Assembly: GCA_037143175.1 (NCBI GenBank)
Contig: JBAWZF010000006.1
Span: 67,414 to 102,615 of the forward strand
Direction of reading: 5' to 3'
DNA from: a bacterium
Lineage (GTDB): Bacteria > Verrucomicrobiota > Kiritimatiellia > CAIKKV01 > CAITUY01
Length of the DNA: 35,202 nucleotides
In this document: piece by piece, positions 1 through 35,202 of the stretch
Numbering within the stretch: position 1 is the stretch's first letter
Layout: every line of letters starts with the position of its first letter
Position numbers and translations under genes: made by a program
Notes under the pieces: generated by a model
What the model saw: the letters and a program-made list of their open reading frames with translations, nothing else
What the model was told of the DNA's origin: nothing
Database searches by the model: none

Positions 1-1359
1 GAGAAAGCGGCAGGCTTGGTGACGGATCCGGCCCTGTGTGAGCCCCTCCTGATCAAGGCGGCGGATGCGTTGTTTGCCAATGCCCAATATACATTGGCGG
101 AGGCCGCTTACGAAAATGTTTTAACCCGATACCCTGCCTCGGCATTGAACCCGCAAGTTCTCTATCAGTTGGGTGAATGTCTTGCCCGGCAACTCCTGCG
201 GCGGGAGGCGGAGGGGCGTTTCCGTGAATTGGTGCGCAAAATGCCCTCCAGTCCACTGGCCGAGCGGGCGTTAATGAGAATTGCCGAGATGAAAGAGGAA
301 CAGGGGCCGGCGTTTGTGCGGGAGGCCTTGGCCGCCTATCTTGAAGTGATGTCCGTTTATCCGGCAGGGGCGCTCTTTGCAGAGGCGCTTCATCGGCATG
401 GTTTGGCGGCCTATCAGATGGGGGATATTGATGTTGCCCTCAGCGATTTTTCAAGGGTCGTCAAGGAGTTTCCCGGCAGTCGGGTCGCACCCCAGGCTTA
501 CTTCATGCGGGGCTGGGCACTCTATATGCGCGGGCAGGAAGAGGAGTCGCTCAAGGTCTGTAAGGCCTTTGTCGAACGTTATCCGGACAGTGAATGGACG
601 CCGGGTGTCATCTTCTGGATCGGCGAGTATGCGTTCAATCATGGGCGTTATGCCGATGCCGAAGCCCGGTTTATCAAGTTGGCCGACAAATCGCCGCAGG
701 ATGCCCTGGCAGATCAGTCACTGATTTGGGCCGGTCGGTCAGCCATGATGCAGAAAGAGTACTTGCGGGCAGTGGAGTCGTTATCCCGGATGACACGGAC
801 CTATCCGACTAGTTTGCACATGGCAGAGGCGCGGTTTTTGCAGGCGGATGCCTTGAGTGAGCTGGGGGAATTTTCACGGGCGATTCTGGTGTTTGATGAA
901 CTGATTGAAAAGTTCCCAAACTCGCCGTTGGTCAGCGCCGCCTGGGGACGTCGTGGTGACTGTCATTTCACGCTGGGGGCAACGGATCCAAAACGCTATG
1001 CCGAGGCTATCACTTCGTATCGGGCGGTCAGTCGTTCCCCGGGAACACCGTTTGATCTCGAGCTTCAGGCGGAATACAAAATCGGCCGGTGTTACGATAA
1101 GATGGGAAAATTGAGCGAAGCCTTTGAGCAATACTATACACGGGTGGTTTGCCGATATCTGGCGGACAAGCAGAAGGACAGCGCGGCCGCTGTCTGGTTT
1201 ACCAAGGCGGCTTTTTCTGCTGCAGATATTCTGGAATTGGAAAAAAATTGGAAACGAGCCATGAAGGTGCTGGAGCGGGTTGAGGGGGCTCAGATACCGG
1301 CCAGTGCTGATGCCCGTAAGCGAATTGAACAGATCCGTTCAGAACACTGGGTTTGGTAA
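1..1359 (+). CDS. TPR-repeat envelope protein (5' end outside window)
   Basis: The reading frame is open to the left edge, so the N-terminus is missing; the first in-window start (TTG at 16) is probably not the true one. The product is a chain of tetratricopeptide-like helical repeats from start to finish, with recurrent pieces such as A..AY..vL..YP, ..AL..FS.vv.eFP and 'YPDSEW'. This resembles BamD, YbgF/CpoB and other outer-membrane-associated TPR proteins. Such repeats act as protein-protein scaffolds. It lies 10 bp before an ExbB/TolQ gene, whose ribosome site (AAGGAG) overlaps its stop region, so it likely belongs to a Tol-Pal or TonB-type envelope complex. The exact partner cannot be read from the sequence. 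Confidence 0.8.
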   Translation, partial: EKAAGLVTDPALCEPLLIKAADALFANAQYTLAEAAYENVLTRYPASALNPQVLYQLGECLARQLLRREAEGRFRELVRKMPSSPLAERALMRIAEMKEEQGPAFVREALAAYLEVMSVYPAGALFAEALHRHGLAAYQMGDIDVALSDFSRVVKEFPGSRVAPQAYFMRGWALYMRGQEEESLKVCKAFVERYPDSEWTPGVIFWIGEYAFNHGRYADAEARFIKLADKSPQDALADQSLIWAGRSAMMQKEYLRAVESLSRMTRTYPTSLHMAEARFLQADALSELGEFSRAILVFDELIEKFPNSPLVSAAWGRRGDCHFTLGATDPKRYAEAITSYRAVSRSPGTPFDLELQAEYKIGRCYDKMGKLSEAFEQYYTRVVCRYLADKQKDSAAAVWFTKAAFSAADILELEKNWKRAMKVLERVEGAQIPASADARKRIEQIRSEHWVW

Positions 1360-1369
1360 GGAGTGAATT

Positions 1370-2014
1370 ATGTTCGATCTTTTGAATGAAGGTGGATTGA
1401 TTGCCTGGATCATTTCAGGTGCCGGTGTTTTTGCTTTCATGCTTTTCATGGAGCGTCTTTTGATGTTACATCGGGCCCGTATCAAATCCGAGGATTTCAT
1501 TGCCGGGATTTGTAACAATCTGGGACGGGGGAACGTTGATGAAGCCCTCGCCATTTGTGATGATACCCCGGGACCGGTAGCGGTCATTGTGCGGGCGGCC
1601 ATTCTCAATCGGCGGGCCGAAAAGGATGCCATCCGGACGGCGATGGAAAATGCCGGGCGCACGGAAATTTCCCGTATGGAACGGCGGTTGACGAATTTTG
1701 TAACGATCGCCCAGGTCGCTCCGATTTTCGGACTGCTTGGGACGGTGGTCGGAATGATTAAATCCCTCCAGATCATGCAGGCGGCGGCCCCCCTGGTTCA
1801 GCCTGGTGACGTGATGGGAGGCTTGATGCAGGCCTTGGTCACCACCGCAGTGGGTCTCGCCGTGGCGGCCCCCTGTTATGTGGCCTTTAATTTTCTCACG
1901 GGTAAGGTGGAGAAAATTGTTATCGATATGGAACGCGCTGCCGCGGATATGATTGCCTTCCTGTCTGGCATGCCTATCGTTCATGATGATCCTGGAATGG
2001 AGAAGGACGAATGA
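1370..2014 (+). CDS. ExbB/TolQ/MotA-family proton channel protein
   Basis: Inner-membrane proton-channel subunit of 214 residues, the usual size for ExbB/TolQ. Three hydrophobic segments are visible: near residues 10-30, around 110-130 (including 'APIFGLLGTVVGMI', the family signature) and about 150-175 ('TTAVGLAVAAPCYVAFNFL'). A cytoplasmic loop with charged helices separates the first two, as expected. It starts with ATG eight bases after AAGGAG and overlaps the next gene by 4 bp (ATGA), indicating translational coupling. With the downstream ExbD/TolR-like and TonB-like genes it should energise an outer-membrane process using the proton gradient. Whether it belongs to a TonB-type or a Tol-type system is not decided. 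Confidence 0.9.
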   Translation: MFDLLNEGGLIAWIISGAGVFAFMLFMERLLMLHRARIKSEDFIAGICNNLGRGNVDEALAICDDTPGPVAVIVRAAILNRRAEKDAIRTAMENAGRTEISRMERRLTNFVTIAQVAPIFGLLGTVVGMIKSLQIMQAAAPLVQPGDVMGGLMQALVTTAVGLAVAAPCYVAFNFLTGKVEKIVIDMERAAADMIAFLSGMPIVHDDPGMEKDE

Positions 2015-2511
2015 TCAAACGAGAGGAACCCAAGGCGATTGGCTGGACGGTACATGGATTCCGGCATTACCACCCTCAAAACCGTTTAAATAAGGGGTTG
2101 GTCGCAACGGCACCCTGGATGAGTGTCACGTTGTTAATTGCATTATATCTCTATCTGCTAGCTCCGAATGTTCTGCAACCGGGCATGGTTTTGCAACTTC
2201 CGGTGGCACCCTTTTCGGATGGGCGTCATTATGGACATAATGTGGCGGTGCTTTCCCTGCCTATGGCGGGGCGGACGGAACGGGACGAAATTTTCTTTTT
2301 TGACGATCAGCGATATTTGGGGCGTGAACCGGCGGAGATGGATGCATTGCGCGGAGCCCTCGCCACGGCCTGGACACAGAAACCAAATCTACCGATGGTC
2401 ATTGAGGCCGATCGGATGGTACGGCATGACACCGTTGTGAAACTTTTTGAGATGGCGGCGGAGGCCGGGTTTCGTGAAGTTAACCTGGCGACAAGGCCAT
2501 CCCAGAGGTAA
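2011..2511 (+). CDS. ExbD/TolR-family protein
   Basis: Protein of 166 residues with a cytoplasmic N-terminus of about 30 residues, one membrane segment (about 35-52, 'MSVTLLIALYLYLLAP') and a periplasmic domain. The end of the domain ('PMVIEADRMVRHDTVVKLFEMAAEAGFREVNLAT') matches the ExbD/TolR pattern of a strand followed by 'v..l...a..aGf..v.lat'. The usual membrane Asp used for proton transfer is not clear in the segment, which is unusual and could mean altered proton coupling. It is coupled to the ExbB-like gene by a 4-bp overlap and precedes a TonB-like gene. Confidence 0.8.
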   Translation: MIKREEPKAIGWTVHGFRHYHPQNRLNKGLVATAPWMSVTLLIALYLYLLAPNVLQPGMVLQLPVAPFSDGRHYGHNVAVLSLPMAGRTERDEIFFFDDQRYLGREPAEMDALRGALATAWTQKPNLPMVIEADRMVRHDTVVKLFEMAAEAGFREVNLATRPSQR

Positions 2512-2516
2512 CGGGC

Positions 2517-3254
2517 GTGAGCAATCAATACGTCATCCCATTATCCTGGCGCAATGTTACGCTGGTGTTTGCTGCAGGCGTTACTCTGTGGCTGGTGCCC
2601 TGGCTGGTTTTTCCCTCGTCATACCGGACGGTGGCAAAAACGGAGCGGCATTCACCTCCGATATTCAGGTACATCCGGGCCGCTCAGGGGTTGGATGGTT
2701 CGACATGGTCTCCAGTATTAATGCCGCTGCCCACTCCTGATGGCTTCAGTAAAAAGGCGGCATTAAAAGAATTGCCCAATAAAAGCCTTGTTTCAGTGTT
2801 GAAACCCAAGATATCGGGGCCAGTCTATATGACTCTGGAACCCGGAAACGGGGTGATATCAGCCTCGCCCCGGATTTCTTTCCTGCAGCCGGTGGAGTTT
2901 GATCCGGAGGTATCGCAAAAATCGATTACCCCGGATGCGGGGTCCCGGGCCGCCAATGTATTCCGGTTTGAGATTCAGGAGCCGTTACGCTATCGTCTGT
3001 ATGAGTTCCCTGATTTGCAGATGGCGTTTTCGAATGGGGATGATAAAGCTTCGATCATGGTGACGGCAGCTGTTGAACTTGATAAACAGGGACTGGTGCA
3101 ACATGTACTGCTGGAACAGCCAGCTGGTATCTCCGGGGTTGATTCGATGATTGTAAGGGGATTGCGTACTGGCCGGGGGCAGCCTGGCACCTCCAACACA
3201 TGGGGGCAGGTAAAGTTTTTTTATTGGAAGAATAGTCCAGTTCAGAAGGAGTAA
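2517..3254 (+). CDS. TonB-like single-pass periplasmic protein
   Basis: Starts with GTG at 2517 after an AGAGG-like site. The protein has one N-terminal membrane segment (about 13-32), a long periplasmic linker with Pro/Ser/Lys, and a C-terminal region ('VTAAVELDKQGLVQHVLLEQPAGISGVDSMIVRGLRTGR') that has the shape of a TonB C-terminal domain: V.v.ld..G.v..v.v....g...lD..v...l. No strong Pro-Lys/Pro-Glu linker of classical TonB is present. Gene order ExbB-ExbD-this protein supports a TonB-type role of transmitting energy to the outer membrane. The assignment rests on context and shape, so a generic energy-transducing partner is the safe reading. Confidence 0.6.
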   Translation: MSNQYVIPLSWRNVTLVFAAGVTLWLVPWLVFPSSYRTVAKTERHSPPIFRYIRAAQGLDGSTWSPVLMPLPTPDGFSKKAALKELPNKSLVSVLKPKISGPVYMTLEPGNGVISASPRISFLQPVEFDPEVSQKSITPDAGSRAANVFRFEIQEPLRYRLYEFPDLQMAFSNGDDKASIMVTAAVELDKQGLVQHVLLEQPAGISGVDSMIVRGLRTGRGQPGTSNTWGQVKFFYWKNSPVQKE

Positions 3255-3257
3255 GGT

Positions 3258-4556
3258 ATGGAAATCAAAATCGCGAAATGGGCGGCGGATAAACCGTCAG
3301 CCATCGTGACCTCTTTTTTAAAACGTCCGGCGTTTGATCCCGGTGCTGAAACCGCTGCCCGTGCCACCCTTGAGGATATCCGATTGAACGGGGATTCTGC
3401 TGTGCTTAAAGCGATCAAGGAATTTGACGGCGTGTCATTGAATGCCGCACGAATGCGGGTAACCATGGCCGAACTGGCGGAGGCTCGCGAAACCGTTGAT
3501 GCCCAATTCCGAAGTGCGGCCCGCGAAACGTATAAACGCGTGACCACTTTTTCACGTGCCGGGATGAAAAAAGACTGGAAGATTTTCAGCCCCAAGGGTG
3601 GTGAACTCGGCGAGCAATTTGTTCCGTTGGATCGGGTAGGGGTGTATATCCCCGGCGGCCAGGCCCCCTTGGTTTCAACTGTATTTATGACCGTTACCCT
3701 GGCCCGGGTAGCGGGTGTACAGGAAATTGTGGTATGTACGCCATCTGATGCCAATGGCAAGGTGAATCCCTATATTCTTTTCGCACTTGAAATGGCCGGG
3801 GCTACGGAAATCTATCGCGTGGGGGGCATCCAGGCCATCGGGTTGATGGCGTATGGCACCAAGACTGTTACACGTGTACAGAAAATTGTGGGGCCGGGCG
3901 GAGCTTATGTGACGGCTGCTAAAAAATTGGTTTACGGGGAGGTCGCACTGGACCTTGTGGCTGGCCCGAGCGAGATCGCTATTCTGGCTGATGACACGGC
4001 ACATCCTGAATGTGTGGCGGCAGACCTCCTTTCCCAGGCTGAACATGGAACGGGCCTGGAAAAGGCCATTTTGGTGACCACTTCAAGTGTGCTCGCCACG
4101 AAGGTGTCGGAGCAACTACTCTCGCAGGCGGAAACATTACCCCGGAAAAATGCCATTCATAAAGTGCTCGATAAAGGCACATTGCTTGTCATTGTCAACA
4201 CGTTGGATGAAGGAATGGATCTATGCAATCAGTTTGCACCTGAACACTTTGAAATCATGGTTCGTGAGCCACGGAGTTGGTTGCGAAAAGTCAGGACTGC
4301 CGGCGCGGTGTTCTTTGGCATGTGGACGCCTGAATCCGTTGGTGATTTCGTGGCCGGGCCCAGTCACGTTCTGCCTACGGGGGGGACCGCGACCATGTTC
4401 TCTGGTCTGACGGTGGATGACTTCCGGCGGCGAACAAGTTTTATGGCATTTACCCGTGCCGATTTGCAGGAAACACTTCCCGTGATTGAGGCTTTTGGAC
4501 GTGTTGAAGGTCTGGAGGCCCATGCCCGGGCCGCTCGGGTAAGATTTGAGGTTTAA
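3258..4556 (+). CDS. hisD: Histidinol dehydrogenase
   Basis: Catalyses the last two steps of histidine synthesis, oxidising L-histidinol to L-histidine with two NAD+. Length of 432 residues is standard. Family features seen: 'GVYIPGG' near 128, 'VGPGGAYVTAAK' near 211, 'AGPSEIAILAD' near 235, zinc-ligand region 'SQAEHG' (Gln260, His263), catalytic 'FAPEH' (Glu329, His330) and 'GDFVAGPSHVLPTGG' (Asp363, His370). The ribosome site AAGGAG is 7 bp before the ATG and the gene lies 3 bp after the TonB-like gene. hisC follows after 2 bp, so the two form a histidine pair at the end of the envelope operon. Confidence 0.97.
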   Translation: MEIKIAKWAADKPSAIVTSFLKRPAFDPGAETAARATLEDIRLNGDSAVLKAIKEFDGVSLNAARMRVTMAELAEARETVDAQFRSAARETYKRVTTFSRAGMKKDWKIFSPKGGELGEQFVPLDRVGVYIPGGQAPLVSTVFMTVTLARVAGVQEIVVCTPSDANGKVNPYILFALEMAGATEIYRVGGIQAIGLMAYGTKTVTRVQKIVGPGGAYVTAAKKLVYGEVALDLVAGPSEIAILADDTAHPECVAADLLSQAEHGTGLEKAILVTTSSVLATKVSEQLLSQAETLPRKNAIHKVLDKGTLLVIVNTLDEGMDLCNQFAPEHFEIMVREPRSWLRKVRTAGAVFFGMWTPESVGDFVAGPSHVLPTGGTATMFSGLTVDDFRRRTSFMAFTRADLQETLPVIEAFGRVEGLEAHARAARVRFEV

Positions 4557-5685: not shown

Positions 5686-6909
5686 TTACTCCCGTCGCAG
5701 ACTCTCAATAGGGTTCAATCGGGCGGCCCGCCAGGCGGGATAGAAACCAAAGAAGATCCCGACGCCTGCCGAGAAGGTGAGGGCGAGGAGGACGGCGGCC
5801 GGGGAAATCAGAACTGGCCAATGGTTTGCCGCCCCCAGAATGCTTGCTGCGGTTACCCCAAGCCCGATGCCAATAATGCCACCCACACCTGACAACACCA
5901 CGGCTTCGACCAGAAATTGCATCATGATGTCATGGCGCCGGGCGCCGAGTGCCAGACGCAAGCCGATTTCGCGAGTGCGCTCACTGACGGCTACCAGCAT
6001 GATGTTCATAATCCCAATGCCACCTACCAGAAGCGAAATGGAGGCGATAACCGTCAACAAGATGGTCATGAGGCTTGATACCTGTGTGATCATCTGCGTG
6101 ACTTCCGTCATATCCATGATGGTGAAGTCGTCATCTTCATTTCCGCCGATCCGATGCCGTTGGCGGAGTATCGCGGAAACCTCTGCCTTGACCAGGGGCA
6201 GGTTGTCCATCGATTTGAGGCTAAAAATCAGTTGATTGACATTATTAAACTTGGATCTTTCCAAGACCCTCCGAATGGTGACCCACGGCGCGATAATGGT
6301 GTCATCCTGATCCTGCCCCCAGGCAGCAGAACCTTTGGAGGCCATTACTCCGACCACTCTGAAGGGCATGTTTCTGATACGAATCGTTTTGCCGAGTGGG
6401 TCTTCACCCTGGAACAGTTGATCTGCAACGGTTTTACCCAATACGCAGACTCTGGCTGCACTTTTGATATCAGCTTCTGTGAAGAAATCACCGGAAGCGA
6501 TATCCCAGCTTCGCACCTCGGGAAACTGGATATTGACACCCTGAATCATTGTAGCCCAATCATTTTCACGGTAGATGCATTGGCCGCCTGACCGTATCAG
6601 TGGAGTCATGGCCACGACAAATTGACTCTCACGCAGAATGACTTCCCCATCTTCGGCGGTCAGGGTTTGTTGAGTTCCGGAGCCCCCCCGAAATCCACCT
6701 GCATTCTGGCTTCCCGGGAAAATCATCAGGAGATTATTGCCCATGCTGTTGATTTGGGCGCGCATGTTGGTGGAGGCCCCCTGGCCGACGGCGACTACAG
6801 CAATGACGGCGGCAATGCCGATAATAATTCCCAGTGCCGTCAACAGTGAGCGGCCTTTATTTCGGGCCAGCGCCCGCAGGGCGATTTTGATCGTCATCAG
6901 CCCGTTCAT
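5686..6909 (-). CDS. MacB-type ABC transporter permease (FtsX family)
   Basis: Inner-membrane permease without a fused ATPase, 407 residues. The N-terminal membrane segment ('LLTALGIIIGIAAVIAVVAVGQGA') is followed by a large periplasmic MacB core domain with 'MGNNLLMIFPG' and 'FFTEADIKSAARVCVLGKTVADQLF'. Three C-terminal FtsX membrane segments follow, with 'LLVGGIGIMNIMLVAVSERTREIGLRLALGA' as a clear signature and 'YPAWRAARLNPIESLRRE' at the end. It overlaps the ATPase gene by 4 bp. With the ATPase, adaptor and TolC-like genes upstream it forms a MacAB-TolC-type pump; the substrate (macrolide, peptide, lipoprotein or other) cannot be told. ATG codons at residue 1 or 5 are both possible starts. 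Confidence 0.92.
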   Translation of the reverse strand: MNGLMTIKIALRALARNKGRSLLTALGIIIGIAAVIAVVAVGQGASTNMRAQINSMGNNLLMIFPGSQNAGGFRGGSGTQQTLTAEDGEVILRESQFVVAMTPLIRSGGQCIYRENDWATMIQGVNIQFPEVRSWDIASGDFFTEADIKSAARVCVLGKTVADQLFQGEDPLGKTIRIRNMPFRVVGVMASKGSAAWGQDQDDTIIAPWVTIRRVLERSKFNNVNQLIFSLKSMDNLPLVKAEVSAILRQRHRIGGNEDDDFTIMDMTEVTQMITQVSSLMTILLTVIASISLLVGGIGIMNIMLVAVSERTREIGLRLALGARRHDIMMQFLVEAVVLSGVGGIIGIGLGVTAASILGAANHWPVLISPAAVLLALTFSAGVGIFFGFYPAWRAARLNPIESLRRE

Positions 6910-7571
6910 ACGATTTCTCCATCCCGCATCTGGATGACTCGCTTGGCGAACCGGGCAATATCAGGTTCATGGGTGACCATGACAATGGTGATGCCTTCTT
7001 TATTAAGTTCCTGAAAGAGCGCCATAATGTCATCAGCAGAACGGCTATCGAGATTTCCCGTCGGCTCATCGGCCAGAATCAGAGGAGGCTGATTGACAAG
7101 GGCTCGTGCAATGGCCACACGTTGTTGCTGACCGCCGGAAAGTTGGCCGGGATGGTGTTGCATACGGCCTTCCAGTCCGAGTCTGGTCAGAAGCTCACGG
7201 GCGCGTTTACGGCGCTCCGCGCTCCGCATGTGGACTCCATAGTAGAGGGGGAGTTCCACGTTTTCTTCAGCCGTTGTCCGGGGAAGCAGATTAAAGTTCT
7301 GGAAAACAAACCCGATTTTCTGATTACGGATTTTTGCCAGAGCGTCGCTATCGAGTTTGCTGACCTCTTCGCCATCCAGATGATAACTCCCGCTATCAGG
7401 TGTATCCAAGCAGCCTAGAAGATTCAGGAGCGTGCTTTTCCCTGATCCGGAATGCCCCATGATGGCTACAAATTCACCTGCCGCAATGTCGGTGGAGACA
7501 TTTTTCAAGGCCGGCACATCCACCGACTCCATGTGGTAGACTTTATTAATCTGGCGTAAAGTAATAAGCAT
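6906..7571 (-). CDS. MacB/LolD-type ABC transporter ATPase
   Basis: Cytoplasmic ATPase that powers the adjacent permease. I use the ATG at 7571 ('MLITLRQINKVY'), giving 221 residues, the normal size. The longer frame from 7658 runs back into the adaptor gene. Walker A is GHSGSGKST (39-47), the Q-loop is near 'FVFQNFNLLP', the signature is LSGGQQQR (144-151), Walker B is LILADEP (164-170) and the switch His is 201. The 'LLGCLDTPDSG' and 'EPTGNLDS' phrases are typical of the MacB/LolD group. No strong ribosome site is seen, so translation is probably coupled to the adaptor gene ending 4 bp upstream. Confidence 0.95.
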   Translation of the reverse strand: MLITLRQINKVYHMESVDVPALKNVSTDIAAGEFVAIMGHSGSGKSTLLNLLGCLDTPDSGSYHLDGEEVSKLDSDALAKIRNQKIGFVFQNFNLLPRTTAEENVELPLYYGVHMRSAERRKRARELLTRLGLEGRMQHHPGQLSGGQQQRVAIARALVNQPPLILADEPTGNLDSRSADDIMALFQELNKEGITIVMVTHEPDIARFAKRVIQMRDGEIV

Positions 7572-23239: not shown

Positions 23240-23374
23240 TTGCCGGTCAAAAGTAGTTGCGCTTCCGCTTGTCGACCTTGAAAAGCTTTGCAATACTCGG
23301 CGCGAATTATTGCCCGCGCCTTCTCGAACTGTAGGGTTCAAGGCGAAACATGACGGGGATTGGGCAGCAGAGTT

Positions 23375-23392
23375 CCACGATCCATATCGTGG
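23375..23392. promoter_or_regulatory. Short palindrome upstream of DUF3800 gene
   Basis: CCACGAT and ATCGTGG flank CCAT, 21 bp before the start at 23414. It could be an operator. No clear promoter boxes were found. Confidence 0.35.
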
Positions 23393-23413
23393 GTATTTTC
23401 AGGAAAGAGGAAC

Positions 23414-24112
23414 ATGACTGATAGTGTTACATTGCCGGACAATGGTGACTTGTTGCCGACAAGGCGACCGTGCCTGTATGTATTTCTTGATGAGGGGGGC
23501 AATCTTGATTTTTCCCCTAGTGGAACTCAATATCTATCCCTCAGTTCCATTTCTACCGTCCGCCCTTTTTTCTTTGATCCGCCATTGATTGAACTGCGGT
23601 ACGACCTAATTGAGTCTGGGCTCGATATGCCCCGGTTTCATGCCGCCGAGGATCGGCAAGTTGTCCGCGATCAGGTGTTTCAGTCAATTCTTGCCCACAA
23701 TGGTCAGATTCATGTGGATTCCATAATTGTGGACAAGACACAACTCCCCGACGGCATGAAAAAGGTAGAACATTTATATCCGGTCGCGCTTACCCAGTTA
23801 TTGAAAGAACTGGTATTGCCCAACTATAACCTTGGGCTTTATGCAGAGGTGATAGTGATCACGGATACACTGCCGGTGGATAGACGCCGCAAAGCGGTTG
23901 AAAAGGGCATCAAGCAGACACTCGCAGCAGCATTATCAGCGGGAACACGTTACCGCATTTATCATCACTCTTCGGCATCCTGTATGGGACTACAGGTCGC
24001 CGACTACTGCAACTGGGCGATCTATCGAAAATGGCAGTCTGGCGACGCCAGAAGTCATAATACGATTCAGCGGCTTATTCGCCATGAGCGGCAATTTGCG
24101 TCAGAGGGGTAA
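23414..24112 (+). CDS. DUF3800-family protein
   Basis: Start at the ATG at 23414 after AGAGGAAC. It has 232 residues. Family hallmarks: 'YVFLDEGGNLDF..SGTQYLSLSSIS' at the beginning (Asp/Glu pair of an RNase H-like fold), 'RFHAAEDRQVVRDQVFQSIL' in the middle, 'IVITDTLPVDRRRKAVEKGIKQTL' and the closing 'MGLQVADYCNWAIYRKWQSGD' with a conserved Asp. DUF3800 proteins are common in phages and mobile elements; their biochemical role is unsettled. It runs opposite to the head genes and ends at a strong terminator, so it is an independent cargo gene. Confidence 0.85.
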   Translation: MTDSVTLPDNGDLLPTRRPCLYVFLDEGGNLDFSPSGTQYLSLSSISTVRPFFFDPPLIELRYDLIESGLDMPRFHAAEDRQVVRDQVFQSILAHNGQIHVDSIIVDKTQLPDGMKKVEHLYPVALTQLLKELVLPNYNLGLYAEVIVITDTLPVDRRRKAVEKGIKQTLAAALSAGTRYRIYHHSSASCMGLQVADYCNWAIYRKWQSGDARSHNTIQRLIRHERQFASEG

Positions 24113-28239: not shown

Positions 28240-28420
28240 GTATCGATCGCCCCACTAACATCCTCTCTCTTTGCCCCACCCGTACCCTTGTCGCCTCACA
28301 CCTCCCACTAAACGCCACCATCCTCCCGCTACTCGCCACCTCCCACCGACCATGGTTGGCGAGCGCCAAGGCCATCACACAGTCATCATGCTACCCCGAC
28401 AAGGCCGTAACCACTCTGAC
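28240..28420 (-). pseudogene. Decayed 3' end of a second large terminase gene
   Basis: The minus strand reads 'ALSG(stop)HDDCVMALALANHGRWEV.SSGRMVAFSG', then 'GQRERMLVG'. It aligns with the intact terminase end 'APSGYHDDCVMALALANHGRWEAESSGKMMAIGG..RQRERVLVG'. Tyr has become a TAG stop, and the 5' part is missing. DNA similarity is strongest at 28317-28411 against 29950-30043, but many third-base differences show it is an older or foreign copy, not a recent duplicate. The rest of the 412-bp gap from 28187 holds nothing else apart from a promoter. Confidence 0.8.
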
Positions 28421-28487: not shown

Positions 28488-28598
28488 ACATTCAGTCAGG
28501 CAGATGTCTGATGAAAACAAGAGCCGGACGGTCTTTTGGTTTATGATTCCGGAAATCCCGTCATGGCGCTCAATATATGCTCGGATATGGGAGATGAT

Positions 28599-29564
28599 AT
28601 GAACGACGTAAGAGAGGCACTAGCGCGATTCGAGTCAGCCGTAGTGCCGCTAATCGAGAAGGCGTTCCAGACGTTACTTGAGGAGAAGCACCTGTATCAG
28701 TCGGTCGATCTCGCCGTTGCGGATATGTCCGACTTCATCGAACAATTGGCACAGAAGCGACGGAAAATGGAAGCCCAAGTTATGCCTTCGCTAGGGGGCG
28801 GAGGAAGAACTTCGCGACCGCAGTCCAAGGAAGAGATCATCCGTGAGTTCACGCATCAAGCGGAAGGGTGTCTGCGTCGGCTTCCTTACCTGATGATGCA
28901 GGAAAAAACCAATCCGCTCGGCAAGCCAGATACCAATCGAGTGGCGAATATCGTAGTTTCCGTGCAGACTGTCAGGACGTTCTGCTCTCACCAAGGGTGC
29001 GGTGGCTTATGGCCTCACAATCCTTGTCATGATCCATCCGTCCTCATTCCTGCGTCCCTGTCGGGGACGGACTTGCATCAGGTGTTTCTTCTTCGCTATC
29101 AGTGTCAGAACTGCAAGAAAGACCCCGTCACCTTCCTCGTTAAGAGAGAGGGCTTGAAACTTTCCCTAACCGGTCGATCTCCCATCGAGGAGATCGAAGT
29201 ACCACGATTCGTTCCAAAGGAGTGCCGCAAGTTCTACAGGGGTGCCGTGCTCGCCTTCAACTGCGGAGCACACCTGCCCGCGATCTTTATGCTTCGCACG
29301 ACCATTGAGCAACAAATGCGCAGTGCAGTCGACGCCAGAGATAAAAAGATGACTGGCGACGAATTGACGGACGCCTACGCAAAGACGATCCATGCGGACT
29401 TCAATGCGCGCTACCAATCTCTGAAGCCGGTCTACTGTGCATTGAGCGATGCAATTCACTCAGCAAAGGACGATGATCCGGAGTTGTTCAAGACTCAGTT
29501 GAAAAAGGTGCTTGCGCATTTCGAGGCAAAGGAAGTTTTCGCGCGGCTCGCAGCGCCAGAATGA
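28599..29564 (+). CDS. DUF4145-like protein with zinc ribbon
   Basis: Start at the ATG at 28599 (MNDVREAL) after GGGAG; upstream in-frame ATGs (28536, 28563, 28587) have weaker sites. An N-terminal helical region of 120 residues is followed by a Cys/His-rich part ('CSHQGCGGLWPHNPCHD', then 'YQCQNCKKDPVTFLVKREG'), likely a zinc ribbon. A C-terminal helical domain follows ('FYRGAVLAFNCGAHLPAIFMLRTTIEQQMRS..', 'LKPVYCALSDAIHSAKDDDPEL'), in the pattern of DUF4145, with Arg-x3-Glu and a late His. DUF4145 domains occur in restriction and other defence proteins. It is plus-strand cargo flanked by terminase sequences. Confidence 0.65.
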   Translation: MNDVREALARFESAVVPLIEKAFQTLLEEKHLYQSVDLAVADMSDFIEQLAQKRRKMEAQVMPSLGGGGRTSRPQSKEEIIREFTHQAEGCLRRLPYLMMQEKTNPLGKPDTNRVANIVVSVQTVRTFCSHQGCGGLWPHNPCHDPSVLIPASLSGTDLHQVFLLRYQCQNCKKDPVTFLVKREGLKLSLTGRSPIEEIEVPRFVPKECRKFYRGAVLAFNCGAHLPAIFMLRTTIEQQMRSAVDARDKKMTGDELTDAYAKTIHADFNARYQSLKPVYCALSDAIHSAKDDDPELFKTQLKKVLAHFEAKEVFARLAAPE

Positions 29565-29888: not shown

Positions 29889-31202
29889 TCACCCAACCAA
29901 CACCCGCTCCCGCTGTCTTCCCTTTGCCCTAATCCGCCCACCGCCAATCGCCATCATCTTCCCACTACTTTCCGCCTCCCACCGGCCATGGTTAGCCAGG
30001 GCCAAGGCCATCACGCAGTCATCATGATACCCCGACGGGGCATTATATGTGATCCCGCCTGACGGTGAGATTTCATACTCATACCGCTTCATTTCGGCTG
30101 TAAGAATATCCCAATCCTTCGCGTTTTCTCGTGCAAACTCTTTTCTCGGTCCCGACCAGGAAACTTTTCTTTGTTCAACTGCGACAATCAATCGCTGAAT
30201 TATCGCCGTCTTACTTGCCGATGTTAACTTGAACCCCTCAATATCAGCATACTTCTGTTTCAGGTCGTCATATATCGGATCCCCGACGCCTGTGGCGTCT
30301 AAAATCAACCGGCCCCGGTATTTACGAGCGAAGCCTAGTATCCGTTCTTTCTGGATAGGCCAGTCCAGTTGATTAAACCGCTCCATCGCGAAACATAGGC
30401 CCGTCTCTGCATCCATGGCAATAAGGACAGTCCAATCCGTATGCTTGGCCACGTCGCAGCCAATCACCACATGCCGGTGATACGCCTTGCTGTCCAGTGC
30501 CCACTGTTCACTGCCCACTGTGCAGGCGTCGACGTTCCGGAAGACGCCTGCTGAGTCTTCCATAAATTCAGCCATGTATTCTTGTCGGAATACATCTTCT
30601 GGCAGGGTCCGGCGTGCCTCATCCCATTCCTTTGCCGGAAAATATGGTGATTCCTTACTCGGGAACGTGAAACTCGCGTAATCCTCTTCATGGGGATCCA
30701 TGCCCCGGGTGTATAGGTCATAAAACCAGTTACGGCCTTTCGGCGTGCTGACAAATACCGCCCAGCCTAAGGTCTGGGCAATGGTTGGACGAAGCACATA
30801 ATTCCACACATCCGGCGAAATCATAGCCGCCTCATCAATTACAATACCCTGGAATCCGAACCCACGGATATTATCCGGGTTATCGGCGGACAGAAACCAG
30901 ATCCGGACCGGCCCTGCATGCCCGGTAAACTCAACCCGTGTCGGGGCACGACCGGATATCTGGATAAATCCATCGGCAATGGTACGAAACGCCTCAATCC
31001 CACGGTCGGCGACATTATAGGTTGGTGCGATCCAACCATAATCACCGGCTTTTTCACACCCGCCACGATCCAATAACTCTGCCGCCAGACATAATGTCTT
31101 CCCAAACCGCCGCCCGGTACACACCGTCCGGAACCTTTTCTTACGCGCCCTATGAATCGCCTGCTGTGCAGGGTGGGGGAGATAATTGAACACGAAGGCC
31201 AT
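29889..31202 (-). CDS. Large terminase subunit
   Basis: DNA-packaging motor with ATPase and nuclease, 437 residues. Walker A-like GRRFGKT (30-36), Walker B IVIDEAA (120-126) and a coupling motif 'VFVSTPKG' (149-156). The nuclease domain has 'VIGCDVAKHTDWTV' (Asp250), 'RLILDATGVGDPI' (Asp302) and 'YHDDCVMALALAN' (Asp394/395). At 227-240 the piece 'CTVGSEQWALDSKA' is coded by a CAGTGGGCAGTGAA-type micro-repeat and sits between the ATPase and nuclease domains. It starts 3 bp after the small-terminase-like gene, with an AAAGGTG site inside that gene's end. Confidence 0.93.
   Translation of the reverse strand: MAFVFNYLPHPAQQAIHRARKKRFRTVCTGRRFGKTLCLAAELLDRGGCEKAGDYGWIAPTYNVADRGIEAFRTIADGFIQISGRAPTRVEFTGHAGPVRIWFLSADNPDNIRGFGFQGIVIDEAAMISPDVWNYVLRPTIAQTLGWAVFVSTPKGRNWFYDLYTRGMDPHEEDYASFTFPSKESPYFPAKEWDEARRTLPEDVFRQEYMAEFMEDSAGVFRNVDACTVGSEQWALDSKAYHRHVVIGCDVAKHTDWTVLIAMDAETGLCFAMERFNQLDWPIQKERILGFARKYRGRLILDATGVGDPIYDDLKQKYADIEGFKLTSASKTAIIQRLIVAVEQRKVSWSGPRKEFARENAKDWDILTAEMKRYEYEISPSGGITYNAPSGYHDDCVMALALANHGRWEAESSGKMMAIGGGRIRAKGRQRERVLVG
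30495..30524. repeat. CACTGCCCACTG micro-repeat inside the large terminase gene
   Basis: Units CAGTGCCCACTGTT, CACTGCCCACTG and TGCA are in frame and encode the inter-domain segment 'TVGSEQWALDS'. The unit matches those at 21351, 22521 and 26418. Confidence 0.65.
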
Positions 31203-31205
31203 AGG

Positions 31206-31562
31206 TTATGTCACCTTTGTGGATTCAACGGCCTTGGCGTCAATGATTGCACACTCTCCCTGGGAGGGGAGAGGGCTGGGGTGAGGGTTGACCGGCAACA
31301 CGCCGAGCAGACTCTTCCACTGGATCACCCCTTCACGGTCAAGCGACAGCTTCGCCTCCCTGGGGAGCAGCGGCATCACCACCGTCTTGAAGAAATACAC
31401 CGGATCCTTCAGCAGATCTTTCTCCAGCGCGTCCATCAGCGCCTTCTGGTTCTTTTTCTTGGCCAGCAACTTATCCAGGCTCGCCAGAGCCATAATACGT
31501 CCGCCATACGACCCTTTGGGTCGCCCTACGGGGTTGCCTGATTGTCCTGATTCGAAAATCAT
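31206..31562 (-). CDS. Small-terminase-like protein (DUF5681-type start) with repeat-coded tail
   Basis: Protein of 118 residues. 'SGQSGNPVGRPKGS' at the start is the DUF5681-type motif found in proteins next to large terminases, followed by helices ('LASLDKLLAKKKNQKALMDALEKDLLKDPVYFFKTVVMPLLP'). Near the end 'VNPHPSPLPSQGECA' is coded by the dispersed CTCTCCC..GGGTGAGGGT repeat (31254-31288). After it come only 'IIDAKAVESTKVT' and the stop. Position directly upstream of the large terminase supports the packaging-recognition role; an AAGGGTGG site precedes the ATG. Confidence 0.65.
   Translation of the reverse strand: MIFESGQSGNPVGRPKGSYGGRIMALASLDKLLAKKKNQKALMDALEKDLLKDPVYFFKTVVMPLLPREAKLSLDREGVIQWKSLLGVLPVNPHPSPLPSQGECAIIDAKAVESTKVT
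31254..31288. repeat. CTCTCCC..GGGTGAGGGT repeat, second copy
   Basis: Nearly identical over about 35 bp to the intergenic copy at 20253-20289. Here it lies inside the small-terminase-like coding region and encodes 'NPHPSPLPSQGE'. Confidence 0.75.
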
Positions 31563-31598
31563 TATCCACCCTTGTTGTATATTTCATCACGCCATCTG

Positions 31599-31621
31599 AT
31601 AGATGGGTGAAAATCAACGGG
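31599..31621 (-). promoter_or_regulatory. CGTTGATT..CTAT motif, copy 6
   Basis: On the minus strand CCGTTGATTTTC, ACCCAT, CTAT, about 37-48 bp upstream of the small-terminase-like start (31562). It matches copy 3 at 20 of 22 positions and would drive the first head gene. Confidence 0.6.
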
Positions 31622-31790
31622 AGGGCGAACAGGTTGTTGGCTATTCTTTGGGGCACCTTTGCAATTGAAATGGGCGGTTCGCCTACCAATTTGCGGGTGG
31701 ATGCATGCAGATGACCAACACTGAGGAACTAATACGGGCGCTGAGTAACCTGCGCGGGCGGTAAGGGTCGCGAGTTTACGATCATTCCTC

Positions 31791-32237
31791 TCATCCCCCT
31801 TGGTGTGCCCTTTTTTCTTTTTCTTCCTCGATTTTCTTCAAACAAAACTCGCCGAGCGCCAGATTCAGATTATGGACCCACTGCGCAGTGTCCTGTGAAT
31901 CCCTCCAGAAATCAACGAAACGGTTGTCGTAGTAATTATTCTGGAAATGGAAAGTTCCATTACGAAAACGACGTAGCAACTCAACGTTCTCTGACTTAAG
32001 CAGATTATCGACCTTGATATCATGGAGCCCAAGCTCCCGGTAACCTTCGACGACGACAAAGAGTGCTCCATACCAATGGGACATGAAGAGCCCCAGATCG
32101 CTCGCCCAAGTGATCTCGTCCGTCACTTGGTTTTTATTGATTGCCTCCGTGAACAACCCTTTCAGTCGGGTTGCCCAAATATAGTACCTATGAAGGCTTA
32201 GAAAATATCCATAGTTTTCCATTACTTTTTTACCCAA
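31791..32237 (-). CDS. Candidate HEPN-like protein (last gene of four-gene cassette)
   Basis: Protein of 148 residues, all helical. 'NVELLRRFRNGTFHFQNNYYD' (about 84-104) contains R-x4-H (RNGTFH), the arrangement used by HEPN ribonucleases, at the start of a helix after a charged stretch. 'WASDLGLFMSHWYGALFVVVEGYRELGL' forms the earlier helix pair typical of such bundles. The C-terminus is Lys/Glu-rich. It overlaps the upstream gene by 8 bp. The HEPN reading is motif-based. Confidence 0.5.
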   Translation of the reverse strand: MGKKVMENYGYFLSLHRYYIWATRLKGLFTEAINKNQVTDEITWASDLGLFMSHWYGALFVVVEGYRELGLHDIKVDNLLKSENVELLRRFRNGTFHFQNNYYDNRFVDFWRDSQDTAQWVHNLNLALGEFCLKKIEEEKEKRAHQGG

Positions 32238-32871
32238 CGCCCACCGTGAACTTCCCCGTGTGTTGTGTTGCGATCGTCTCAGGCATGTTGATGGTTGACA
32301 AGAGCGCCGTCTTCAATGCCTCATGAAGGGCATGTTCAGCGGACCACATTTCCGAGAAGTCTGTCGGGGCGTGAGGTTGTGACGCATCCGCGAACTTCTT
32401 GATCAAAGCAATCGCTTTGCTCTGGAATTCACGGGCTCGGTCGACCACGGATTCCGGTAGATGCGGTATGCTGCAAGCGATGATATGAGAAAAGGAATCA
32501 TAGGCTGCGTTAGATGCCAGAATGGCTTCGTTGTACTGCTTCTCGCCTGGTGGGCCGAATTTGTCTGCAACTCCTCGAGATGAGTGCAGCGATGTCGCGG
32601 ATTCGCTCAGTAACGATGCGCGTTCCGCCATTTTCTCGATTGCTTTGAGACGAGCATCCACCAGCTTTTCCACGACTGCTCCGCGCGTGTGCGCGATTAC
32701 CTCTGACAGAAGAAAGGCATCTTCCCGTGCATGGCGACGCTTCTCGATCCGTTTGGCAAACACGTCTGTAACCCGCGCCTTGATATACTCACGGAAGATG
32801 AACCCCAGCGTGGCTGCCATGAACGCCAGAATTCCCCCGACTTTCCCGATGATGTCAATGAATGTATCCAT
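32230..32871 (-). CDS. Membrane-anchored helical protein of the cassette
   Basis: Protein of 213 residues with one N-terminal membrane segment (about 10-27, 'KVGGILAFMAATLGFIF') followed by a basic helix ('KRIEKRRHAREDAF') and a helical cytoplasmic domain ('LVDARLKAIEKMAERASLLSESATSL', 'VVDRAREFQSKAIALIKKFADAS'). I know no family. Its end overlaps the HEPN-like gene by 8 bp, which suggests coupled translation and possibly a membrane-tethered partner or sensor. Confidence 0.55.
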   Translation of the reverse strand: MDTFIDIIGKVGGILAFMAATLGFIFREYIKARVTDVFAKRIEKRRHAREDAFLLSEVIAHTRGAVVEKLVDARLKAIEKMAERASLLSESATSLHSSRGVADKFGPPGEKQYNEAILASNAAYDSFSHIIACSIPHLPESVVDRAREFQSKAIALIKKFADASQPHAPTDFSEMWSAEHALHEALKTALLSTINMPETIATQHTGKFTVGVG

Positions 32872-32969
32872 TTATGTCTCTATCTTTCAATGTGCCCAAC
32901 GTTGGCGTTCTTCCTTGAGCAGCCGGTTCCGAACTGCAAATTGGGATCGACGCGTTTTTGTGCCGAAGT

Positions 32970-33749
32970 TCATTTCGTCTGTTGTCTCTTCATCCTTCGG
33001 ATCAGATCCACGAAGAAAACATGTTTGCCCCGGAACCCAACGGTCCATTCTGAAACCTGACATTGGTTCAGATTCTGCTGTTCGAGGAACTGCAGGCCTT
33101 GCCAGACCGTGTCCAAAACCTTGAGAACATCAGTTCGATCGACTCGAATCGGCACGACGTGAAGTTTTAAGTTTATTGTTCTGCGCGTTCTTCCATCGAC
33201 ACACTGCGGGTATCTCTTTTTGTCGCCACTGAATGGTGCCTTCTTTGCACTCGTCAGAGCCATTGGTGTGAGGTCATTCCAGTAATAGTCAATTTCCCAA
33301 AGATGGTTGTGTATGATACAATCCCTAAGTACATAAACCTCGGTTAGGGCTGTAAAGCATCTGAAAGTGGGGTACAAAGCATGCAGGAACTTCAATGCAT
33401 GTCGATTTGCCGGATCATTAGCGATTGGGGTGTTGCGGTTGAGATACCTAGCACGCATCGAATACGACTCGAAACAGGCGACCATGAGAAGGCAGATAGC
33501 CGTCGAGTATCCGTTTTCGGACTCGCTGGTCTGAACTTGGTTGATGGATTTTCTGCTCGGCTTTGAAAAAAGTGTGTCCAAAAGTTCTGCAATGGGTTGG
33601 AGGTATGCTGCACCGATGATTGAGACCAGATTGCTGTGGTGTGTTGCTTTCATCGGATTCATTTTTTTGCACAACTTTGATGTTGACCGGTACGCTTTAG
33701 CGTGTGCGGTCAGACGGCCGGAACATTGTTCATTTGAGCATTTTGCCAA
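32970..33749 (-). CDS. Hypothetical helical protein with R-x4-H motif
   Basis: Up to 259 residues. Start at 33749 overlaps the upstream gene by 20 bp and has a poor ribosome site; later ATGs (33662, 33653; MNPMKATHH) are possible. Its core begins 'NLVSIIGAAYLQPIAELLDTLF' and continues with 'YSTAICLLMVACFESYSMRARYL' and 'LTEVYVLRDCIIHNHLWEID'. The last holds R-x4-H (RDCIIH) at the expected place for a HEPN helix, with the earlier helix carrying an 'ES' pair. The C-terminal part is beta-rich ('INLKLHVVPIRVDRTDVLKVLDTVWQGLQFLE'). A 98-bp gap separates it from the next gene. Confidence 0.5.
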   Translation of the reverse strand: MAKCSNEQCSGRLTAHAKAYRSTSKLCKKMNPMKATHHSNLVSIIGAAYLQPIAELLDTLFSKPSRKSINQVQTSESENGYSTAICLLMVACFESYSMRARYLNRNTPIANDPANRHALKFLHALYPTFRCFTALTEVYVLRDCIIHNHLWEIDYYWNDLTPMALTSAKKAPFSGDKKRYPQCVDGRTRRTINLKLHVVPIRVDRTDVLKVLDTVWQGLQFLEQQNLNQCQVSEWTVGFRGKHVFFVDLIRRMKRQQTK

Positions 33750-34086
33750 TGGTGTCGGACAGGAACCCCTTTACCGAGTCCAAGTTCAAGATGTAACCTA
33801 ACGCCACGAGCAAGATCGAGTATAGAAGGAAAAAAATCTTCTTGCTGATTGCGAGAACTCTTTTGTGCGGTTTTTGGCTATCAATATACTCACGGCCTGC
33901 GTCGCGAATGCCAGTAATGCATGCCGTGCCGTACTCGGAAACTGAGCCCATCACCAGGCCTTTCGCAAGCAACTCAACAGCAAGTTCATTCGCCAAGCGG
34001 TCTTCATGATAACCGAGGGCGGTGCCTTCAGCTATTTTGCATGCCTCCCGCAGAATTTGCCGTCTAATTTCTTCTTCCTTTTTCAT
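33730..34086 (-). CDS. Winged-helix-like membrane protein (first gene of the cassette)
   Basis: Protein of 118 residues. N-terminal charged helices are followed by 'LANELAVELLAKGLVMGSVSEYGTACITGIRDAGREYID', a pattern of a helix, a short strand pair and 'IT..G..yl' that resembles winged-helix DUF2513/YjcQ-like domains. A membrane segment near residues 83-101 ('IFFLLYSILLVALGYIL') and a short tail follow. It starts the minus-strand cassette and overlaps the next gene by 20 bp. It could be a membrane-tethered regulator or sensor. Confidence 0.5.
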   Translation of the reverse strand: MKKEEEIRRQILREACKIAEGTALGYHEDRLANELAVELLAKGLVMGSVSEYGTACITGIRDAGREYIDSQKPHKRVLAISKKIFFLLYSILLVALGYILNLDSVKGFLSDTIGKMLK

Positions 34087-34202
34087 AATTCAAAACAACA
34101 TTGAGACACAATGCCTTGGGTTTGTCGGCACTATAATGCCAAGATAAAGTGTCGGTCTACTGTTTTTCTGTGGATGATAAATCCGAATTGAATACCGCTA
34201 CG

Positions 34203-34247
34203 CCCTGACACGGAACCTGCTTTGAAAGGCCAGGTTCCGCGCCAGGG
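34203..34247. repeat. Hairpin A of the covarying pair
   Basis: GGAACCTG (34212-34219) pairs with CAGGTTCC (34231-34238) over an 11-base loop CTTTGAAAGGC; an outer CCCTG/CAGGG pair extends it. Its counterpart is at 35049-35075. Confidence 0.75.
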
Positions 34248-34311
34248 CTCCGCTCAACCGGAAGCGCTACGCTTCCTTACATAAACCGCTCCCCCCGTAA
34301 AGGGGGTCGCT

Positions 34312-34362
34312 GTGGTCCAACACGGATCCGGCAACGCGGACACCGGCTATGCCGGCGACCAC
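34312..34362. repeat. Nested stem-loop GTGGTC..GACCAC
   Basis: GTGGTC and GACCAC form the outer stem; CCGGC-TAT-GCCGG forms an inner hairpin next to the right arm. Neighbouring small hairpins are GAAGCG-CTA-CGCTTC (34261-34275) and CCCCC-GTAAA-GGGGG (34292-34306). Confidence 0.65.
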
Positions 34363-34636
34363 GTTACCTCCGCCGTGAATACGACCTGCCGGACCCGCTT
34401 CGGACGGCCAGCGACGGCCTCTACGCGGCCGGCGCAGACCGCCCTCAGCACATGACTCCCTATTGACCATAGATCTTCGATCCAGGTTGGACTCTCTATT
34501 GACCGCTACGCGCATCGAGTGTCACTTGCGCCTCCGCGCGCCGGTCGTACAACCTTCCTTCGTCAGGTTGGCCGCCCGTCTCGCTCCAGCCCAAGCACCA
34601 CTCCATTGCGCTCCGCCATACAATACAAACCGGAGT

Positions 34637-34710
34637 GCTGCCTTCGTGTGCCCGTTCCGGGTCTCCGCTCGTTCCTCGCTCCCCACCCGGACCGGTCACA
34701 CCAAGGCAGC
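34637..34710. repeat. Long mismatch-containing hairpin 1
   Basis: GCTGCCTTCGTGTG pairs with CACACCAAGGCAGC leaving one C-C mismatch; inside, CCGTTCCGGGT pairs with ACCCGGACCGG with one mismatch. The stem totals about 24 bp. Confidence 0.7.
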
Positions 34711-34882
34711 CCCATCACACCGCGCCGGACAGCCGGTGCGGAAAGCTACGCGCAAGGAGTGCTGTCTGTTCCGCCGTTCGGACGTCATTCCCGGATCCTC
34801 CTATCGTCGGAACCGAAAATGCCGTCCTCACTCCCCCACAGCCATCTCTCCATGCGCTCCGCCATACAAACCGGTGTGCGGG

Positions 34883-34941
34883 GTTCAATCCGTCCGGGTC
34901 GAGGCGCGTACCGCGCTGATCTCGCCCCGGTCGGATTCAAC
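34883..34941. repeat. Long mismatch-containing hairpin 2
   Basis: GTTCAATCCGTCCGGG pairs with CCCGGTCGGATTCAAC leaving C-C and T-T mismatches. It has the same architecture as hairpin 1, at the same distance after the second TGCGCTCCGCCATACAA word. Confidence 0.65.
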
Positions 34942-35048
34942 ACCGCTCCATCTCAGCGCGCCGGGAACCGGCGCTCAAACCGCTACGCGGCCTTCGGTCA
35001 CTCTATTGTCTTTTCAATGACCATACCGCTACGCTACGCCTCCGTCAC

Positions 35049-35075
35049 GGCACCTGCTTCAAAAGGCCAGGTGCC
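35049..35075. repeat. Hairpin B of the covarying pair
   Basis: GGCACCTG (35049-35056) pairs with CAGGTGCC (35068-35075) over CTTCAAAAGGC. Compared with hairpin A, one A-T pair has become C-G, so both arms changed together. Confidence 0.75.
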
Positions 35076-35202
35076 GCGCCGTCAGCTACGCTACGCGGCC
35101 TCCGGACTCTCTATTGACACCCTATGGACCCAAGGCGCTTCAAAGGGCCGTTCGGATCGCCGCTTATTGTTCCAACTTTCACCCATGAAGCGTCCGCTTC
35201 GC

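Follow-up and report, generated by a model that had tools for sequence, protein, structure and literature searches.

The predicted catalytic site of HEPN RNases consists of an R-x4-6-H motif in which N, D or H follows the Arg, together with an acidic residue further upstream (PMC3710099). The upstream acidic motif is typically Ex3[KR] and is found in many, though not all, HEPN families; some HEPN domains are non-catalytic (PMC3710099). Here, a cassette of four genes, from now on referred to as A, B, C and D, is analyzed, of which D encodes a protein with a putative site of this kind. The Cthe_2314-like HEPN family (PF18730) shares with D an R-N-x3-H segment and is all-helical, as is the model of D. 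However, the only D family member to match its model, HEPN_Cthe2314, is the one from locus L014 (E=0.0099, 16.3 bits, profile positions 100-157, the motif part), which stays under the curated cut-off of 27.1 bits, while seven of eight members have no match at all. Comparison of the D profile with three PF18730-type proteins superposed the R-x4-H segments at a probability of 0.3%, which is not significant. An integron cassette HEPN protein (PDB 3jrt; PMC3710099) is alike in motif type, and one relative of D is likewise a single-gene integron cassette; however, when PDB sequences were searched with profiles of the D family, 3jrt was absent from the matches at E up to 10, and all matches were of the chance kind. 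Membrane-associated HEPN proteins (PMC3710099) provide the idea of membrane-sited RNA cutting, yet carry helix and HEPN domain in one polypeptide, whereas the helices of the present locus reside in the separate proteins A and C. Abi-type and PrrC/RloC-type defense systems have in common with this locus a predicted HEPN effector, and several D relatives have OLD, SMC-like ATPase or restriction genes as neighbors. In contrast, the A-D cassette itself has no PADLOC match, ATPase or restriction gene. The A-D gene arrangement was not described in any of the papers searched.

Organization of the four-gene locus

The window, that is, the whole stretch of 35,202 nucleotides that was analyzed (G000:C6:67414-102615), ends on its right side at the contig end. 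The four genes are arranged as follows:

31791-32222, minus strand: gene D, from the ATG at 32222 (ORF to 32237), 143 aa, with E59 and R87-N88-x3-H92
32230-32871, minus strand: gene C (ORF), 213 aa, based on codon score and hydropathy
32970-33662, minus strand: gene B, from the ATG at 33662 (ORF to 33749), 230 aa, or 259 aa with a TTG start at 33749
33730-34086, minus strand: gene A (ORF), 118 aa, based on the best codon score in its own frame and hydropathy

The four consecutive minus-strand ORFs of the original prediction are present. With a codon-usage score trained on other long genes within the window, all four ORFs scored highest in their own frame out of the six, and they are therefore probably real genes. 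Both of the R-x4-H motifs that had been pointed out, the RDCIIH of B and the RNGTFH of D, were also found. The 8- and 20-bp overlaps reported for two of the junctions arise from choosing TTG as start codon and are probably not real. The sixth codon of the D ORF, the ATG at 32222, lies approximately where the relatives of D start, and with this start the gap between D and C is 7 nt. For B, the first ATG at 33662 is 67 nt from A, and in the TTG extension (33663-33749) four of the five other frames outscore the frame of B. The gap between B and C is 98 nt. A promoter scan gave results at chance level.

An exchangeable slot in a Mu-like prophage module

A Mu-like head module occupies the minus strand of the window between about 20 and 31.6 kb. 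It encodes a terminase large subunit (PF03237, phrog_2), a Mu-type portal (PF06074, E=1.6e-51), a Mu-like protease (PF10123, E=1.8e-22) and a major head protein (phrog_1005). A-D adjoin its terminase genes on the upstream side and on the same strand. The surrounding features are:

29889-31562, minus strand: terminase small-subunit-like (DUF5681-like) and large subunit genes, the backbone next to the slot
31619-34193: variable cargo slot, from the terminase genes to the dispersed repeat, with content that differs in three copies
34194-35202: genus-wide dispersed repeat bounding the slot, with the contig ending inside it

In the sibling genome G005, two copies of the repeat (L031 and L032) adjoin the same Mu-like head module. 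DNA identity with both picks up again at 31618, close to the terminase genes on their upstream side, and at 34194. The segment enclosed by these positions comprises A-D (2.57 kb) in the window, a gene for a metallo-beta-lactamase-fold hydrolase (1.0 kb; PF12706, E=2.4e-9) in L031 and a gene for a 167-aa lipoprotein-like protein (about 0.7 kb) in L032. As the slot holds other genes in L031 and L032, A-D are exchangeable cargo rather than phage backbone, and represent a cargo cassette in a swappable slot of a Mu-like prophage module.

That A-D immediately precede the terminase genes, in the same orientation, is also what one would expect if D were an RNA-binding or regulatory helical protein without RNase activity, perhaps a phage regulator. 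The non-catalytic HEPN domains mentioned above (PMC3710099) and the absence of any enzyme family match above cut-off for D are in line with this idea. However, the slot is exchanged in the sibling copies while the terminase genes stay, so that A-D are not needed for terminase expression, and the Arg, His and acidic positions of D are kept in all eight divergent family members, as for a catalytic site. We consider such a regulatory function quite unlikely. An integron origin of the cassette was rejected, as 31400-35202 contains no attC-like repeats.

The repeat at 34194-35202 is a mosaic with 15 matches in G005, five in G007 and one more in G000:C89; it contains a hairpin at 34202-34248, and the assembly breaks in the repeat. 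About 91 bp of the 3' end of the terminase large subunit gene are duplicated (86%) at 28310-28400 and 29946-30036, flanking a plus-strand gene (28536-29564). This insertion is missing from L031 and L032 and thus looks like a second cargo slot, via recombination with another terL copy. The inserted gene encodes a 342-aa protein with a Cys-containing middle and the C-terminal segment MLRTTIEQQMR ... LSDAIH, which has no Pfam match and, judged by eye, reads like a DUF4145/HEPN-type protein without the Arg. Between the portal and protease genes, the window carries a DUF3800 gene (23360-24112, plus strand), while L031 encodes a DUF4062 and HATPase_c_4 protein there; judged by this gene content, the portal-protease interval is a third variable slot of the element.

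Gene D belongs to a small family with a conserved HEPN signature

A tblastn match to D on a Gemmatirosa plasmid served as the seed for a profile, and a profile scan of genomes with it identified relatives in Marinobacter aromaticivorans (L008) and a Planctomycetota metagenome-assembled genome (L009). Whole-genome searches added G545 and G695 (Marinobacter phylum) as well as G1027 and G1049 (Planctomycetota draw). The resulting seven relatives, with Marinobacter, Planctomycetota and Gemmatimonadota among their taxa, are 27-43% identical to the D of the window. The family is sparse, being found in 3 of 398 and 3 of 199 genomes with the seed genome counted in each, and within the window's own taxonomic family D is present in one of nine genomes, namely that of the window. 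A weak match from the first phylum scan (L005; 24% identity, E=8.4e-4) was excluded. Searches by tblastn of phages (with B, D and the L014 relative) and plasmids (with A-D) yielded the Gemmatirosa relative and one weak phage match (E=0.06), and viral contigs scanned with A, B, C and D as queries contained no relatives. The D family has no model in Pfam, NCBIfam or PADLOC.

The alignment of all eight sequences (window D and the seven relatives; median pairwise identity 31%) contains five invariant columns, two of which are R87 and H92, and the R-x4-H motif is thus kept in every member. The residue directly after the Arg is N in seven sequences and H in one, and position 59 is acidic in all eight (E in seven, D in one). 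Where a basic residue follows, the acidic motif of the family reads Ex2[KR], with this residue at +3 compared with +4 in the typical Ex3[KR]. It should be noted that R-x4-H arises in 32% of shuffled D sequences and that a second such motif in D, RELGLH, is not conserved. RNGTFH is therefore meaningful only through its conservation across relatives, the motif alone not going beyond chance. The HEPN assignment originally made from motif spacing holds for D because its Arg and His do not vary among the eight divergent homologs, whereas motif presence as such, being at chance level in shuffles, does not carry it.

The AlphaFold2 model of D, built from three sequences, is an all-helical bundle of moderate confidence (pLDDT 69, pTM 0.67), but Foldseek searches with it gave no significant match (best E=0.46; the HepT structure 6m6u ranked 27th, E=2.2). 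None of the D family members passed the cut-off of any HEPN model. Taken together, gene D is likely a member of the HEPN superfamily, and given the signature kept in eight sequences and the defense-type neighbors of its relatives, it probably encodes a HEPN endoRNase.

Genomic neighborhoods of D relatives

Several relatives of D are found next to genes of defense or conflict systems. In L008, an OLD gene (PADLOC Old, E=3e-240) precedes the D relative by 77 bp, and a VRR_NUC protein is encoded downstream. The L009 relative is the next gene behind a Ymh HEPN gene (PF09509, E=6.8e-13), at a distance of 16 bp, or overlaps it if an upstream start is taken, in surroundings with Gp49/HI1420-type toxin-antitoxin (TA) and Fic genes. 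In L014, the gene that ends 17 bp before the D relative is RiboL-PSP-HEPN-like (E=1.8e-4, below cut-off) and carries RNEIIH; the island around them also encodes Eco47II-type and AspBHI/Mrr endonucleases as well as a C5 methylase. The L021 relative is convergent with an SMC-like ATPase gene and has an RHGEAH protein beside it. At L015, a D-type domain follows DUF6896 in a fusion protein, which is encoded by a prophage that also has RusA and DnaT-domain genes. L020 is situated near a contig end, and the gene upstream of its D relative weakly matches a fiber protein. In L007, on the Gemmatirosa plasmid, the D relative is the only gene between two attC-like sites that belong to a long series of such repeats, and is thus an integron cassette. 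A second HEPN or R-x4-H protein beside the D relative is firm in L009 and probable in L014; in L021 and the window it is recognizable by motif only. Overall, these neighborhoods favor roles in defense or conflict, and D is probably a phage-defense or growth-arrest gene.

Some of these loci contain further features of note. The L021 region 484-3458 encodes an SMC/AAA-type ATPase (715 aa) followed by the 234-aa RHGEAH protein, possibly a split PrrC/RloC-like ATPase-HEPN pair. The L015 fusion (6378-7379) combines DUF6896 and the D-type HEPN-like domain (RNNVFH) in one protein. Positions 1-10330 of L007 (Gemmatirosa kalamazoonensis plasmid 1) contain attC-like repeats (GCCTAACGAATCGTTGCAGCTGACG ... 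CGCAGCTGAACTCCAGCGTTAGGC) that occur at least 16 times, at intervals of about 0.5-1.0 kb, and represent an extended integron cassette array on a 1.1-Mb plasmid without annotation in the collection.

Across the seven loci, the D relatives have no constant partner and no neighbor resembling A, B or C. The same four-gene order, which had been suggested as something to look for in other genomes, was accordingly not encountered in the genomes examined: wherever else D was found, A-C are missing, and the comparison does not support a four-gene membrane-linked system. D may thus act alone, as a solo HEPN toxin or defense gene, with A, B and C being unrelated cargo with other roles. Consistent with this, neighbors differ at every other locus, one relative forms a single-gene integron cassette, and the gaps of 98 nt between B and C and of 67 nt between A and B (with its ATG start) do not demand a single transcript. 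On the other hand, A-D lie on the same strand, are tightly spaced and are bounded together in a single slot. We regard independent action of D as a serious alternative that falls a little short of an even chance.

HEPN proteins are the toxins of many TA pairs (PMC3710099, PMC7641770), and the relative in L007 is, like that in L009, found near TA or Fic genes. Thus, the cassette could also be a TA-type addiction or dormancy module with D as RNase toxin and B or C as antitoxin, mainly serving element upkeep or dormancy, phage defense being secondary. However, A-C contain no MNT or other known antitoxin domain, and the L007 relative has no partner within its integron cassette. We judge this arrangement unlikely, while giving it some weight.

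Genes A, B and C

Comparison of A-D with Pfam, NCBIfam, PADLOC, PHROGs and PDB sequences gave nothing useful, and none of the families in PADLOC-DB 2.0.0 matched at E up to 10. Protein A has one hydrophobic, predicted membrane helix near its C-terminus (residues ~84-102), in agreement with its description as a winged-helix-like membrane protein as far as the membrane is concerned; the winged helix is not borne out, as A matches no family. Protein C has one N-terminal hydrophobic helix (residues ~7-25), also predicted to be membrane-located, in keeping with the suggestion that it is membrane-anchored. B is a possible HEPN protein, a candidate by virtue of its RDCIIH motif. R-x4-H arises in 46% of shuffled B sequences, a single-sequence model of B was unusable (pLDDT 36), and B showed no similarity to D, to the partners of the D relatives in L014 and L021 or to PF18730 proteins.

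No relative of A was found in family genomes, plasmids or viral contigs, none of B by plasmid and phage tblastn or viral contig scans, and none of C in its own or family genomes, plasmids or viral contigs. Since A, B and C have no relatives in the collections searched, co-operation of A-D cannot be demonstrated by co-occurrence. That all four genes act together appears doubtful, and both their joint action and the individual roles of A, B and C are speculative.

Proposed mechanism and implications

We lean towards a reading of A-D as exchangeable prophage cargo whose recognizable working part is D, a predicted HEPN-type metal-independent endoRNase. D would be held quiet in the uninfected cell and freed by a cue from an invading phage or another stress. 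Two HEPN subunits would then join two R-x4-H motifs to cut RNA, whereupon growth would stop and the competing phage would not be made. B might serve either as another HEPN subunit or as the inhibitor, and A and C, with one membrane helix each, might position the complex at the membrane or detect membrane damage, which is speculative. We infer RNase activity and growth arrest by D from published HEPN work (PMC3710099), and its defense role from neighborhoods only. A more elaborate version, in which B and D would be unlike halves of a composite HEPN site held at the inner membrane by infection-sensing A and C, making up a heteromeric tethered defense system, seems to us very improbable.

The cassette itself is real and D probably belongs to a known kind of protein, HEPN, in a family without a model; the four-gene membrane-linked defense system is a guess. 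D anchors a small HEPN-like family that is missed by current Pfam, NCBIfam and PADLOC models, and the D family alignment could serve as a model flagging new defense neighborhoods. The three copies of one Mu-like head module expose concrete slots for the exchange of such genes, and the L015 fusion may link DUF6896 to conflict systems. D relatives often lie beside a second HEPN-like protein, which makes unlike HEPN pairs a testable idea. If B and D did form such a pair, this recurrence would make unlike HEPN pairs a general theme of the D family.
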